In this document: positions 217 to 40,237 of the stretch, piece by piece | Numbering within the stretch: position 1 is the stretch's first letter | Layout of the letters: each line of letters begins with the position of its first letter | From: an uncultured Bacilli bacterium | GTDB lineage: Bacteria; Bacillota_I; Bacilli_A; RF39; UBA660 | Reading direction: 5' to 3' | Assembly (NCBI GenBank): GCA_947589675.1 | Contig: CANQCI010000010.1 | Location: 1-44,875 of the forward strand | DNA: 44,875 bases | Notes under the pieces: generated by a model | Told to the model about the DNA's origin: nothing | Seen by the model: the letters and a program-made list of their open reading frames with translations, nothing else | The model's database searches: none | Position numbers and translations under genes: made by a program

Positions 217-246
217 TTGACAACTATAAATATCGTATGGTAATAT
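217..246 (+). promoter_or_regulatory. Promoter of the large ncRNA
   Basis: A consensus TTGACA (217-222) is followed after 18 bases by TAATAT (241-246). Transcription is expected to start near 252-254, about 20 bases before the closing helix of the structured RNA. There is no Shine-Dalgarno sequence or ORF downstream. Confidence 0.7.
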
Positions 247-251
247 TAAGT

Positions 252-898
252 TACATAAAAGATATGACATAAAGATATTGTTATTTGACATTTAGATAAT
301 TGAACCATATGAAAGACAAGACGCAAACTTGTATGGAGGGCATCTTAGCTTATTACCTGATAGGGCGACCTTTCGGGGGATTGAGAAAGAAAATATTAGC
401 AATTATATTTTCGAGGATCTACGAAGTAGAAAAAAGATGCCTGTGGTTTAGTAAGTGGATTTATAAAGCACAAAACTAATCGTGATCATCATAAACTTTC
501 TGATAGAATGCAGAAGAATAACTTTATCACTTATTAGGTTGGCACCTAAAGAGTTATAAAGACGCCTTAAGTCATAATGTTGTAGTTGATACCTGGTGAC
601 AGGAGTATAAGATTAGAAGTTGGTTAAAGTAGCACAAATCTACAACAATACTTTTCTGAAAAACGGAAGAGTTTCAAGAGTTTTAGATAATACCTAAGCG
701 TGTGAAATTTGGGAGTGAAATTCTCCCGTAGTGATTGTAGGTAGATGAAAATTAAAGGTCGCACCTTTATGAGGGCATCTACTGGCTAGTGGCTGAATGA
801 AAAAATAGATGTATTTATTAAACTAATGAGAGAATCATCATTATCTAATTGTCAAATAACAATAGAAATTAATACTCAAATTACTGAGTATTTTTTTT
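252..898 (+). ncRNA. Large structured non-coding RNA (OLE/ROOL/GOLLD-size class), family not determined
   Basis: The ends 276-300 and 840-864 form a 25-bp helix with one mismatch that encloses about 540 nt without a usable ORF. Internal perfect or near-perfect helices include 339-346/434-441, 418-422/426-430, 518-525/550-557 with 534-539/544-549 nested inside, 578-585/640-647 enclosing a GTGA-capped hairpin at 592-603, 651-656/666-671, 711-715/723-727, and 741-747/776-782 enclosing 753-759/763-769. It has its own consensus promoter upstream and a terminator at 871-898. Closed length (589 nt) resembles ROOL (mean near 580 nt) or OLE (about 600 nt). No OapA-like gene follows, so OLE is less favoured. 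The family name is an inference from size and architecture; being a large structured RNA is well supported. Confidence 0.8.
871..898 (+). terminator. Rho-independent terminator of the large ncRNA
   Basis: AATACTCA (871-878) pairs with TGAGTATT (885-892), followed by a run of T. The same stem sequence recurs in the terminators at 6952-6975 and 9312-9343. Confidence 0.85.
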
Positions 899-6086: not shown

Positions 6087-6092
6087 TAAAAT

Positions 6093-6275
6093 GCCTAGAG
6101 GTATAGTTTACATTTTATAAAAACCGACTAAGATAAAAATAAGGGAATCTAATTGGTTAGTGGTGTAGAATACTCACCCATTAAGTGTCGTGAGGATCCT
6201 AAAATTAACCATGTGATGCCCACCTCGCGAGAGCGGGTTTTTTATCAGGTAGACTACCCTCCGGGTATTTTTTTA
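6093..6275 (+). ncRNA. ssrS: 6S RNA
   Basis: The roughly 180-nt transcript folds like 6S RNA, the promoter mimic that binds sigma70/sigmaA RNA polymerase. The closing stem pairs 6098-6111 with 6249-6261 (small bulges). A large central bubble follows, whose 3' strand holds a GCGA-capped hairpin (6219-6237). A long apical stem contains TGGTTA (6154-6159)/TAACCA (6206-6211), an ATC/GAT pairing below it and GGTG/CACC above. A terminator hairpin TACCC-TCC-GGGTA plus a T-run ends it. Position directly upstream of tcdA, with rarA nearby, matches B. subtilis bsrA (6S-1) next to yrvM. Family assignment rests on fold and synteny, not a covariance search. Confidence 0.8.
6255..6274 (+). terminator. Terminator at the 6S RNA 3' end
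   Basis: TACCC and GGGTA pair around TCC (6255-6267), followed by seven T. tcdA begins only 13 bases later, so some read-through probably supplies tcdA mRNA. Confidence 0.75.
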
Positions 6276-30442: not shown

Positions 30443-30739
30443 TTATCCCACCACCTTTGGTACTTCGATTTCTCGATCTTCGTAATCATCACAATTTTTT
30501 AATAAATCTTCAATAGGAACCGATTCTTCTTTAACATCTTCTCTTAGAGAAAAAACAAAATCATCTAAAGCATGGGTCATTGGTTCAATTTCAGCAATGC
30601 CAGGAATATTGGCAATAAGTTCCATATTTTCTTCAATAATATCCCCTTCTCTTACGACTAATTCATTTTCTTCGGGACTTAAGCCAATCAATAATTTGGC
30701 AGCTAAATCATCCACAACTTCTTTCGTAAATTTACTCAT
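30443..30739 (-). CDS. gatC: Asp/Glu-tRNA amidotransferase subunit C
   Basis: A 98-residue GatC, the small subunit that holds GatA and GatB together: the LAAKLLIGLSPEE helix and PMTHALDD...LREDV are typical. Start chosen as ATG 30739, 8 bases from AAAGGA; it overlaps the aspS stop codon by 8 bases (ATGAGTAA). Its end runs directly into gatA. Confidence 0.95.
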   Translation of the reverse strand: MSKFTKEVVDDLAAKLLIGLSPEENELVVREGDIIEENMELIANIPGIAEIEPMTHALDDFVFSLREDVKEESVPIEDLLKNCDDYEDREIEVPKVVG

Positions 30740-32495
30740 TTTCATCATCCTTTCTTAAAATTATTCCTAATTCTGCTAATTGTTTTTCGCTAACACTATC
30801 AGGAGCTCCATCCATTAAATCCGCGGCACTTTGGGTTTTTGGAAAAGCTACGACATCTTTTATATCATTAGTTCCAGCTAAAATCATTACTAATCTTTCT
30901 ATGCCTGGGGCAATTCCCGCATGAGGTGGAACCCCATATTTAAAGGCTTCTAACATAAAACCAAATCTTTTTTGAGCTTCTTCATCGCTAATATTTAAGG
31001 CTTTAAATACTTTTCGCAAATCAGCTTCTCGATGGTTTCTAACCCCTCCACTAGCCAGTTCATAACCATTAACGACTAAATCATAACTCCTAGAAATACA
31101 ATGTTCATAATCATTAAGTGTGTTAAAATCTTTAACCATCGTAAAAGGATTATGCTCAGCTTTCCATCTTTTTTCCGTTTCACTATATTCATAAAAAGGA
31201 AAATCGGTAATCCATACAAAATTTATTAAATCATTATTTATTAAATTTAAGTCTTTAGCAATCTTAGTTCGCAAAGCCCCAAGAGAAGCATAAACAATCT
31301 TTGGTTTATCAGCGACAATTAAAATTAAATCATTATTGCTAACTTGGTATGTTTCTTTAATAATTTCAAGTTTTTCATCTTCCAAATTTTTCGCTATAAC
31401 TCCTGTAAATTCATCATTATCATACTTTAACCAAGCCAGTCCCTTAGCTCCATAGATTTTCACAAAATCTGTTAAATGTTCAACATCACTTCGAGAATAT
31501 TTATCACCATTATTTTTAACGATTAGGCACTTAGCAATGCCTCCATTTTCGATAGCTCGTCTAAAAACATTCATGGAAGTATCTTTTAAAATTGTCGTTA
31601 AATCAAGTAAAGGCATTTCATACCTCGTATCTGGTTTATCACTTCCGTATTTATCCATGGCTTCTTGATAGGTTAATCTTGGAAAAGTACCTAAATCTAG
31701 TCCCTTGACATCTTTCACAATTTTTTTAATTAATCCCTCAGTTAAATTAAAAATATCTTCTTCATCTGCAAACGACATTTCTAAATCTATTTGGGTAAAC
31801 TCTGGTTGACGATCAGCTCTTAAATCTTCATCCCGAAAACACCGAGCAACTTGATAATATTTTTCAAAACCACTTACCATTAAAAGCTGTTTAAATATTT
31901 GGGGTGATTGGGGAAGAGCATAAAAACTTCCTTTATTAACCCGACTAGGAACTAAATAATCTCTTGCTCCCTCGGGAGTACTTTTACATAAAATGGGTGT
32001 TTCAATTTCTAAGAAACCTAAGTTATTTAAATATTCTCTAGCACTAGTAATTACTTGATGTCTTAAAATAATATTCTTTTGCAAATTAGTTTTCCGCAAG
32101 TCTAAATATCGATATTTCAAAGCCACATTTTCATTTATCTTTTCATTATCATCATAAACATTAAAAGGCAAACTAGCACATTCACTTAAAACCTCAATAT
32201 TTAAAGCCATTAACTCAACTTCTCCAGTAGGAATTTTTAAGTTAATCATTTCGGGATCTCTTTTAATAATTTTCCCAGTTACTTTTAAACAATATTCATT
32301 CTTTAAATTCTCAGCAATACTAAATTCATCTTTTAAAAAGCCCCGATTAAATACTACTTGTAAAATCCCCGAGCGATCTCTTAAATCAATAAAGATAACT
32401 CCTCCCATATCTCTTCTTTTATTAACCCAACCATAGACAGTTACTTCTTTATCAATATCTTTAGTTGTAAATAAACCATTATCGTATTTTTTCAT
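30732..32495 (-). CDS. aspS: Aspartyl-tRNA synthetase, gatCAB-linked copy (candidate non-discriminating)
   Basis: The protein has 587 residues with an OB-fold anticodon domain (1-105), a class II core with [16 protein letters not shown] (motif 2) and GIAPGIERLVM (motif 3), and a GAD insertion (about 290-410). The residue after RRD, known in bacterial AspRS to separate Leu (discriminating) from His (non-discriminating), is Met. It is first gene of the T-box-controlled aspS-gatC-gatA-gatB operon, so it may charge tRNAAsn with Asp for amidation. A second AspRS sits at 38498-40237. Confidence 0.95.
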   Translation of the reverse strand: MKKYDNGLFTTKDIDKEVTVYGWVNKRRDMGGVIFIDLRDRSGILQVVFNRGFLKDEFSIAENLKNEYCLKVTGKIIKRDPEMINLKIPTGEVELMALNIEVLSECASLPFNVYDDNEKINENVALKYRYLDLRKTNLQKNIILRHQVITSAREYLNNLGFLEIETPILCKSTPEGARDYLVPSRVNKGSFYALPQSPQIFKQLLMVSGFEKYYQVARCFRDEDLRADRQPEFTQIDLEMSFADEEDIFNLTEGLIKKIVKDVKGLDLGTFPRLTYQEAMDKYGSDKPDTRYEMPLLDLTTILKDTSMNVFRRAIENGGIAKCLIVKNNGDKYSRSDVEHLTDFVKIYGAKGLAWLKYDNDEFTGVIAKNLEDEKLEIIKETYQVSNNDLILIVADKPKIVYASLGALRTKIAKDLNLINNDLINFVWITDFPFYEYSETEKRWKAEHNPFTMVKDFNTLNDYEHCISRSYDLVVNGYELASGGVRNHREADLRKVFKALNISDEEAQKRFGFMLEAFKYGVPPHAGIAPGIERLVMILAGTNDIKDVVAFPKTQSAADLMDGAPDSVSEKQLAELGIILRKDDENE

Positions 32496-38497: not shown

Positions 38498-40237
38498 TTA
38501 ATCAATCTTTAATCCTAAGTCAACTAATTGTTTCTTATCAACTTGACTTGGGCAATTACTCATTAAATCACTAGCACTGGCTGTTTTCGGAAAAGCAATA
38601 ACATCTCTAATATTATCGGTATTAGTAAGAAGCATTGTTAAACGATCAAGTCCTAAGGCTAACCCACCATGCGGAGGTGTTCCATATTTTAAAGCTTCCA
38701 CGAAGAACCCAAATTTTTCTTTGATATCTTCCTCAGTTAATTCTAAAGCGGCAAACATCTTTTCTTGAACCTCTTCATCATGGATTCTAATAGAACCCCC
38801 ACCAGCTTCATAACCATTAATCACAATATCATAAGCTTTTGAATAGCAATTAGCTTTGTCATTTAAAAGCTTATCGATATCTTCATCTTTAGGTGAGGTA
38901 AAAGGATGGTGCATCGCTGTAAATCTTTGTTCTTCTTCACTCCATTCAAAAGCGGGAAAATCAGTAACCCATAAAAGTTTATAGTCATCTTTATTAATTA
39001 AATCATTTTCTTTAGCTAGTTTTAATCTTAAAGCTCCAAGGGCTTCTTTAGTTTGTTTATAATTATCACTTACTATGAAAACTAAATCATTTTTTTCTAA
39101 TTCTAAACTTTTAATAATACTATTTTTTTCTTCATCAGTTAATAATTTACTAATTGATCCGGTTAATTCATCTTCATATTTTAAATAAGCAAGTCCTCCA
39201 ACTTGATAGTTTTTCACAAATTCCGTTAATTTATCAATTTCTTTTCGAGAATATTTAGCTGCTTTATTTTTAAGAATTAAACCATTAATAATTTTACCTT
39301 GAGCTAAATTATTTTTCATAAATTCAATATTAGTATCTTTAAATAAATATTCTAAATCAATTATCGGTATCGCAAATCTTAAATCTGGCTTATCTGACCC
39401 ATATTTTGCCATAGCCTCATTATAAGTCATTTTCATTAAAGGCAATTTAAGATCTATATTTTTAACCGTTTTAAAAATATAAGCAACTAACTTTTCCGTT
39501 AAAGCCATCACATCATCTTCATTAACAAAACTCATTTCTAAATCAACTTGGGTAAACTCTGGTTGGCGATCTGCTCTTAAATCTTCATCCCGAAAACAAC
39601 GGGCAATTTGAAAATACTTTTCCATTCCCCCGACCATTAAGAGTTGTTTAAATAACTGAGGTGATTGAGGAAGAGCATAAAAAGCTCCCTTATTTATCCG
39701 ACTAGGCACTAAATAATCCCTTGCTCCCTCGGGAGTACTTTTGCATAAAATGGGGGTTTCAACTTCCACAAAATCTTCTTTATCTAAAAAGTTTCTGATC
39801 GCCATCATTATCTTATGGCGAGTAATAAGCTTAGTTTGTAAATAATTTCTTCGTAAATCTAAATACCGGTATTTTAATCTTGTATCTTCTAAAGCATTGG
39901 TATCATCTTTTATTTCAAAGGGAAGTTCCCGACTTTTACTTAAAATATCCAACTTTAAAACATTTATTTCTATTTCCCCAGTGGCTAAATTAGGATTAGC
40001 TTTTTCCCTTAAAGCTACTTGCCCAGTTACTTTTAGACAATATTCATTTTTTAAAGTTTCCGCTTTTTCATAAACTTTTGTATCAGGTCTAAAGACTAAC
40101 TGAACTAAGCCGGAGCGATCTTTTAAATCAACAAATATAACCCCACCTAAATTCCGCAAACGACTTACCCAGCCATAAACAGTTACTTCTTTTTCTAAAT
40201 ATTCTTTATTTAAATCATTATTCCATATTTTTTTCAT
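38498..40237 (-). CDS. aspS: Aspartyl-tRNA synthetase, stand-alone copy (candidate discriminating)
   Basis: The protein has 579 residues with the same bacterial domain order as the 30732-32495 copy: OB-fold, class II core ([28 protein letters not shown]) and GAD insertion. The residue after RN in the OB-fold signature (LRNLGG) is Leu and the LREKANPN loop carries Lys, both resembling discriminating AspRS such as E. coli. No T-box; its promoter is TTGACA-17-TAAGAT. Thus probably the tRNAAsp-specific house enzyme. Assignment by residues is inference. Confidence 0.95.

Follow-up and report, generated by a model that had tools for sequence, protein, structure and literature searches.

Two questions are raised by the 44,875-nt stretch of DNA analysed here (the window). 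Does the long non-coding segment near its start belong to a known class of large bacterial RNAs, and is it a host gene or the property of a virus or mobile element? A preliminary description, made from the letters alone, had proposed a large, ornate RNA of the OLE, ROOL or GOLLD type, with ROOL as the best-fitting class. To place it, positions 80–950 were compared with all 4227 Rfam families by cmscan with permissive filters. ROOL (RF03087) was the sole family above its gathering score; it matched positions 281–856 (+) at E 3.6e-33 with 149.5 bits, the gathering score being 99.1. This match, 50 bits over gathering, is untruncated and covers model positions 1–574 of 574. Neither OLE nor GOLLD gave an Rfam match in the same interval, even at E up to 10, and the first choice of class thus held. 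The window contains a new, full-length member of the known ROOL family, and the locus is, judged on its sequence, almost certainly a ROOL gene. Size and complexity alone would favour OLE, GOLLD or some new class of large RNA; this highly improbable reading is refuted by the full-model match to the one family above gathering. When Rfam's fast filters were applied at gathering settings over the whole window, ROOL was not recovered, so that routine annotation could leave the gene blank. As default Rfam settings can miss genuine ROOLs, the family is possibly under-counted in such genomes.

The closed unit extends over 276–864 (+), which at 589 nt falls within the size range of non-coding ROOL RNAs (about 500–660 nt). 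It is closed by helix P1, whose 5′ arm at 276–300 (+) pairs with its 3′ arm at 840–864 (+) over 25 bp with one mismatch, as established from an opposite-strand self-match (96%) and base-by-base extension. A GUGA-capped hairpin with a GNRA-type loop is located at 592–603 (+; helix 17 of the consensus). Between conserved flanks, as in other ROOLs, lies a variable linker at 640–676 (+, limits approximate) that is poorly conserved among homologues in an 18-sequence alignment; low-identity alignment columns at about 425–500 line up with the part of the Rfam ROOL model that has no structure. In published structures, the variable linker of ROOL is disordered and lies inside the cage (PMC12286853). 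Folding of 250–897 yields –175.4 kcal/mol, compared with –127.2 kcal/mol (sd 6.3) for dinucleotide shuffles (z –7.6), and the longest open reading frame within 276–864 is 59 aa, with no sign of coding. AT-rich DNA such as that of the window gives spurious helices, but a chance fold or a coding region, to which we attach practically no probability, is refuted by this z-score, by the lack of any reading frame above 59 aa and by the covariation described below.

A predicted sigma-70-type promoter, TTGACA-18-TAATAT, was located by consensus scan at 217–246 (+), with TTGACA at 217–222, a spacer of 18 nt and TAATAT at 241–246. It has 10/12 matches and a TG before the –10 element. No other site in the 100 nt upstream scores better, and 18 of 500 shuffles reach its score. 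The fold further indicates an intrinsic terminator at 871–898 (+), composed of an 8-bp hairpin (871–892) and a T run (891–898), with –7.8 kcal/mol and z –3.75. A consensus scanner did not call this terminator because the hairpin has only two G-C pairs. We infer transcription from about 253 to 897: the housekeeping-type promoter would start transcription near 253, and the hairpin and T run would end it at about 897, giving an RNA of about 640 nt. The preliminary description had listed the non-coding 589-nt segment, the one-mismatch closing helix, the GTGA-capped hairpin, the promoter and a clean terminator, all of which were recovered.

Homologues were collected at several distances. A DNA search of 59 relatives detected a copy about 76–77% identical (genome G021) and a more distant one (G017), both congeneric, and a search of 386 family genomes with a 31-nt motif returned seven copies, one of them that of the window (7/386). 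Further ROOL loci came from scanning genome and viral collections for patterns. All counts are lower bounds, as DNA and motif searches reach close homologues only. Seventeen homologues from related genomes and viral contigs were retained, 16 of them confirmed by cmscan at 142.9–203.5 bits; the 17th, located by motif on viral contig L057 and included in the alignment, gave no cmscan ROOL match at E 0.001. A further match, in contig C20 of G036, was discarded: it comprises the terminal arm only, and cmscan gives no ROOL there. No match to the RNA unit was found by blastn in 50,697 phage records.

The window copy and its 17 homologues were aligned by sequence only. Onto this alignment the Rfam structure was carried over from the window copy, with additional pairs at the closing helix, and then tested. 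Paired cells amounted to 74.1%, versus 65.9% in shuffles and 39–49% when the partners were slid (maximum 48.8%), percentages that are biased towards the structure because it derives from the family model. Double-sided changes are the stronger evidence. They occur in 85 pairs, compared with 58.9 in shuffles and at most 50 in slid controls, and account for 278 compensated cells, compared with 121 and at most 152, respectively. Across these 18 sequences, all five pairing measures beat 500 of 500 shuffles and every slid control. Helices 2, 4, 5, 6, 12, 22, 24 and 25 are well supported; P1 has double-sided changes in 13 of its 25 pairs, and the hairpin at 592–603 shows compensatory changes in three of five. 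The helices joining columns 189–210 with 629–687 are weak in the sequence-only alignment (0–58% of cells paired), which may be due to misalignment or real divergence. The nearest homologue is 77% identical to the window copy; of the 34 pairs that differ between the two, 24 still pair, against 14.4 expected. Seventeen of these 24 changed on both sides and seven on one, and 10 pairs are broken. Compensation across most helices thus bears out the many-helix RNA first described and shows conservation of the ROOL secondary structure that the window RNA is predicted to form. In the ROOL of G430 (L056:1247–1500), the 3′ domain is divergent and rearranged, with a possible 3′ closing arm further downstream.

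The window ROOL stands alone as a chromosomal gene of a Bacilli-type bacterium and does not lie in a virus. The housekeeping genes rarA, gpsA, gatB, aspS, asnS and relA surround it, in line with the chromosomal context initially reported. The window contains no tRNA, and no phage gene was found among the window proteins tested; the region upstream of the contig start lies outside the window. ROOLs tend to occur in phages or prophages or next to tRNA genes, a tendency rather than a defining feature, which the window copy does not follow. The next open reading frame (959–1711) is shared with 20 further genomes of this genus and is followed by genes for a Fic protein and a HerA-type ATPase, a 6S RNA and a ThiF-family gene. 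The 6S RNA, at 6089–6271 (+), scores 58.8 bits and directly precedes the ThiF-family gene.

Comparison of the ROOL loci revealed two main settings. Eight copies are solo: the window copy, L035, L063, L066, L060, L059, L069 and L052. In these, the 3′ end of a promoter-like site of the type TTGnnn-16/18-TAtaAT is 12–37 nt ahead of where the model starts, and the ROOL is followed by a hairpin and T run (by eye; of five that were folded, four are clear). A comparable promoter score was obtained for 8/8 solo ROOLs versus 1/10 of the others, the groups having been set after seeing the sequences. In the tRNA-linked setting, L036, L070, L051, L062, L056 and L065 lie close behind tRNA genes without a separate promoter. 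Of these, L036 (G017) is part of a plain prophage; translations of nearby frames read as an SSB, a RusA-like protein and a terminase-like small subunit. L064 has a promoter, and its tRNAs come after the ROOL; L057 and L058 are viral contigs carrying ROOL copies, and the L061 ROOL lies among phage-like genes (by eye). In a maximum-likelihood tree, the solo ROOLs group together, apart from the tRNA-linked copies. Support is 69% for the split of solo copies from the rest, 100% for the main phage clade and 98% for the window copy with L035. Since the branch order of L052 and L061 is weakly supported (53–69%), we do not claim the solo group as a firmly supported clade. The modest added value of this analysis is a promoter-bearing, host-chromosomal ROOL group in this family of uncultured Bacilli. 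Compact chromosomal copies and sister phage copies within one bacterial family allow host-kept and phage-borne ROOLs to be compared.

The sites of the solo copies differ. The solo ROOL of G268 (L052) is situated between a HerA-type gene and 6S/ThiF-family genes, on the opposite strand to that block; the 6S-like sequence there (41.3 bits, just under gathering) lies about 120 nt from the ROOL in divergent orientation. The closest relative of the window copy, in G021, occupies another locus, beside an HTH/S24 repressor. The two closest solo copies, 77% identical and from the same genus, therefore reside at non-homologous loci, which indicates that the gene was gained or moved. Solo ROOLs are host-chromosomal, yet they are not strictly vertical in inheritance, having been gained, lost or moved. 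L063 (Candidatus Ventrenecus stercoripullorum) and L060 share one gene order: an asparagine synthase-like gene, then a tRNA cluster ending in tRNA-Lys, then the ROOL. L066 and L063 have sequence in common that runs from 13–14 nt before the tRNA-Lys 3′ end, through its terminator, into the ROOL. The opposite flank of this stretch in L066 carries lysin and HNH genes of phage-like type (by eye). This attachment-site arrangement in the tRNA-Lys 3′ end, directly upstream of a solo ROOL (L066:3400–3720, L063:4771–4900), has the pattern of a prophage that would have integrated into tRNA-Lys beside an already resident ROOL.

The contig itself begins inside a group II intron, whose 3′ end (domains V/VI) is at 2–75 (+; RF00029, 56.7 bits); the intron had already been noted as the neighbour of the RNA. 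The same 76 nt of intron end recur at the termini of contigs C50, C29 and C11 of this genome. The frame that follows the copy in C29 looks like an IS91-type transposase (by eye), and the window reading frame after the intron ends NYAIDDASKMVNKKMNNLNNN. A search of relatives with the sequence between intron and promoter returned short matches only, with no clear meaning.

How the solo copies came to be chromosomal allows more than one reading. Possible, if rather unlikely in our judgement, is that one ROOL lineage left a phage tRNA operon, gained a promoter and a terminator, and became a chromosomal host gene, with a fixed site at a tRNA array in some genomes; a host-beneficial role of the RNA cage would then be implied. 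A somewhat better prospect, which we would still not expect to prove right, is that the unit belongs to a mobile element (a plasmid, satellite or prophage that has integrated) and that the rest of this element's genes are located past the start of the contig. Everything upstream is out of view because the contig starts within the repeated intron; the transposase-like frame behind another intron copy, identified by eye, and the phage-type HTH/S24 repressor beside one solo ROOL would both fit such an element. Against it, only host genes lie downstream of the window ROOL, the ROOLs of L063 and L060 are flanked by a tRNA cluster of the host and by other genes that are not of phage type, and the attachment-site pattern of L066 leaves the neighbouring prophage outside the ROOL unit.

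We consider it doubtful that the window copy is instead the decaying remnant of a phage-borne ROOL, left behind after prophage loss and without present host function. The close copies are indeed few (7/386 genomes of the family), and among 29 other genomes of the genus a confirmed ROOL is present in two, one solo elsewhere and one in a prophage. The intron lies directly upstream, and the local gene order is broken relative to relatives: gatB, which in several congeners comes before the neighbour gene, is 27 kb away here. Decay is, however, at odds with helices that are intact, including the terminal 25-bp helix, with the compensated changes since the nearest homologue and with an intact promoter and terminator. 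The site of asparagine synthase-like gene, tRNAs and ROOL is moreover kept in more than one genome.

The window RNA would fold into the ROOL structure and then assemble, free of protein, as a hollow multimer. ROOL cages consist of RNA only, are larger than a ribosome and are joined by kissing loops and A-minor contacts between the copies. By analogy with ROOLs from other sources, for which cryo-EM shows octamers or hexamers that enclose a disordered linker (PMC12286853, PMC12191101), the window RNA probably forms such a protein-free multimer of six or eight copies with its variable linker in the interior. The ROOL of Ligilactobacillus salivarius is very abundant, stable and dispensable in the laboratory, and its deletion, the sole one published for a ROOL, disclosed no clear function (PMC5643018). 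It has been speculated that ROOL might act as a compartment or sponge, with RNAs or ribosomal particles as its content (PMC12286853). Following this literature hypothesis, we take as the likeliest role, with low confidence, that of a stable compartment or sponge that would hold other molecules, first for phages and plasmids, and that would now be kept or parked in the host chromosome.

The window RNA resembles the RF03087 ROOLs of env-120, Enterococcus faecalis and Firmicutes CAG:227 in its full-length model match, length class, helices and linker position; unlike that entry, it has its own promoter and terminator and host chromosomal neighbours. With the lncRNA of L. salivarius UCC118, which is present in 34/45 genomes, it shares family membership, a stand-alone gene and a patchy distribution across strains. 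The UCC118 ROOL differs in being on a megaplasmid, 520 nt long and a hexamer in vitro (PMC5643018, PMC12191101). At least as cited from the discovery paper, ROOLs outside prophages are already on record (PMC12191101). GOLLD is likewise large and phage-associated and forms an empty cage, but its sequence and structure are unrelated to ROOL (PMC12286853). OLE, also a large structured bacterial RNA, differs in binding OapA-type proteins and forming a dimer (PMC12286853).

Two minor observations concern the surroundings. The window carries two complete aspartate–tRNA ligase genes 6 kb apart, at 30732–32495 (–) and 38498–40237 (–), both far over the aspS cut-offs; asnS lies between them, and gatB adjoins one. 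Directly 3′ of several tRNA-linked ROOLs is a conserved non-coding stretch of about 550–730 nt (L070:2940–3660 (–); L051:548–1277 (–); L056 about 620–1170 (–); L062:1357–2040 (+); weakly L036:10155–10760 (+)), with pieces 77–91% identical between genomes. A scan of this stretch returned nothing above Rfam gathering. It includes tRNA-Leu-like halves in L070, L051 and L056, has a more stable fold than its shuffles (z –4.05 and –3.2), shows weak covariation in four sequences, and may be an undescribed large RNA.
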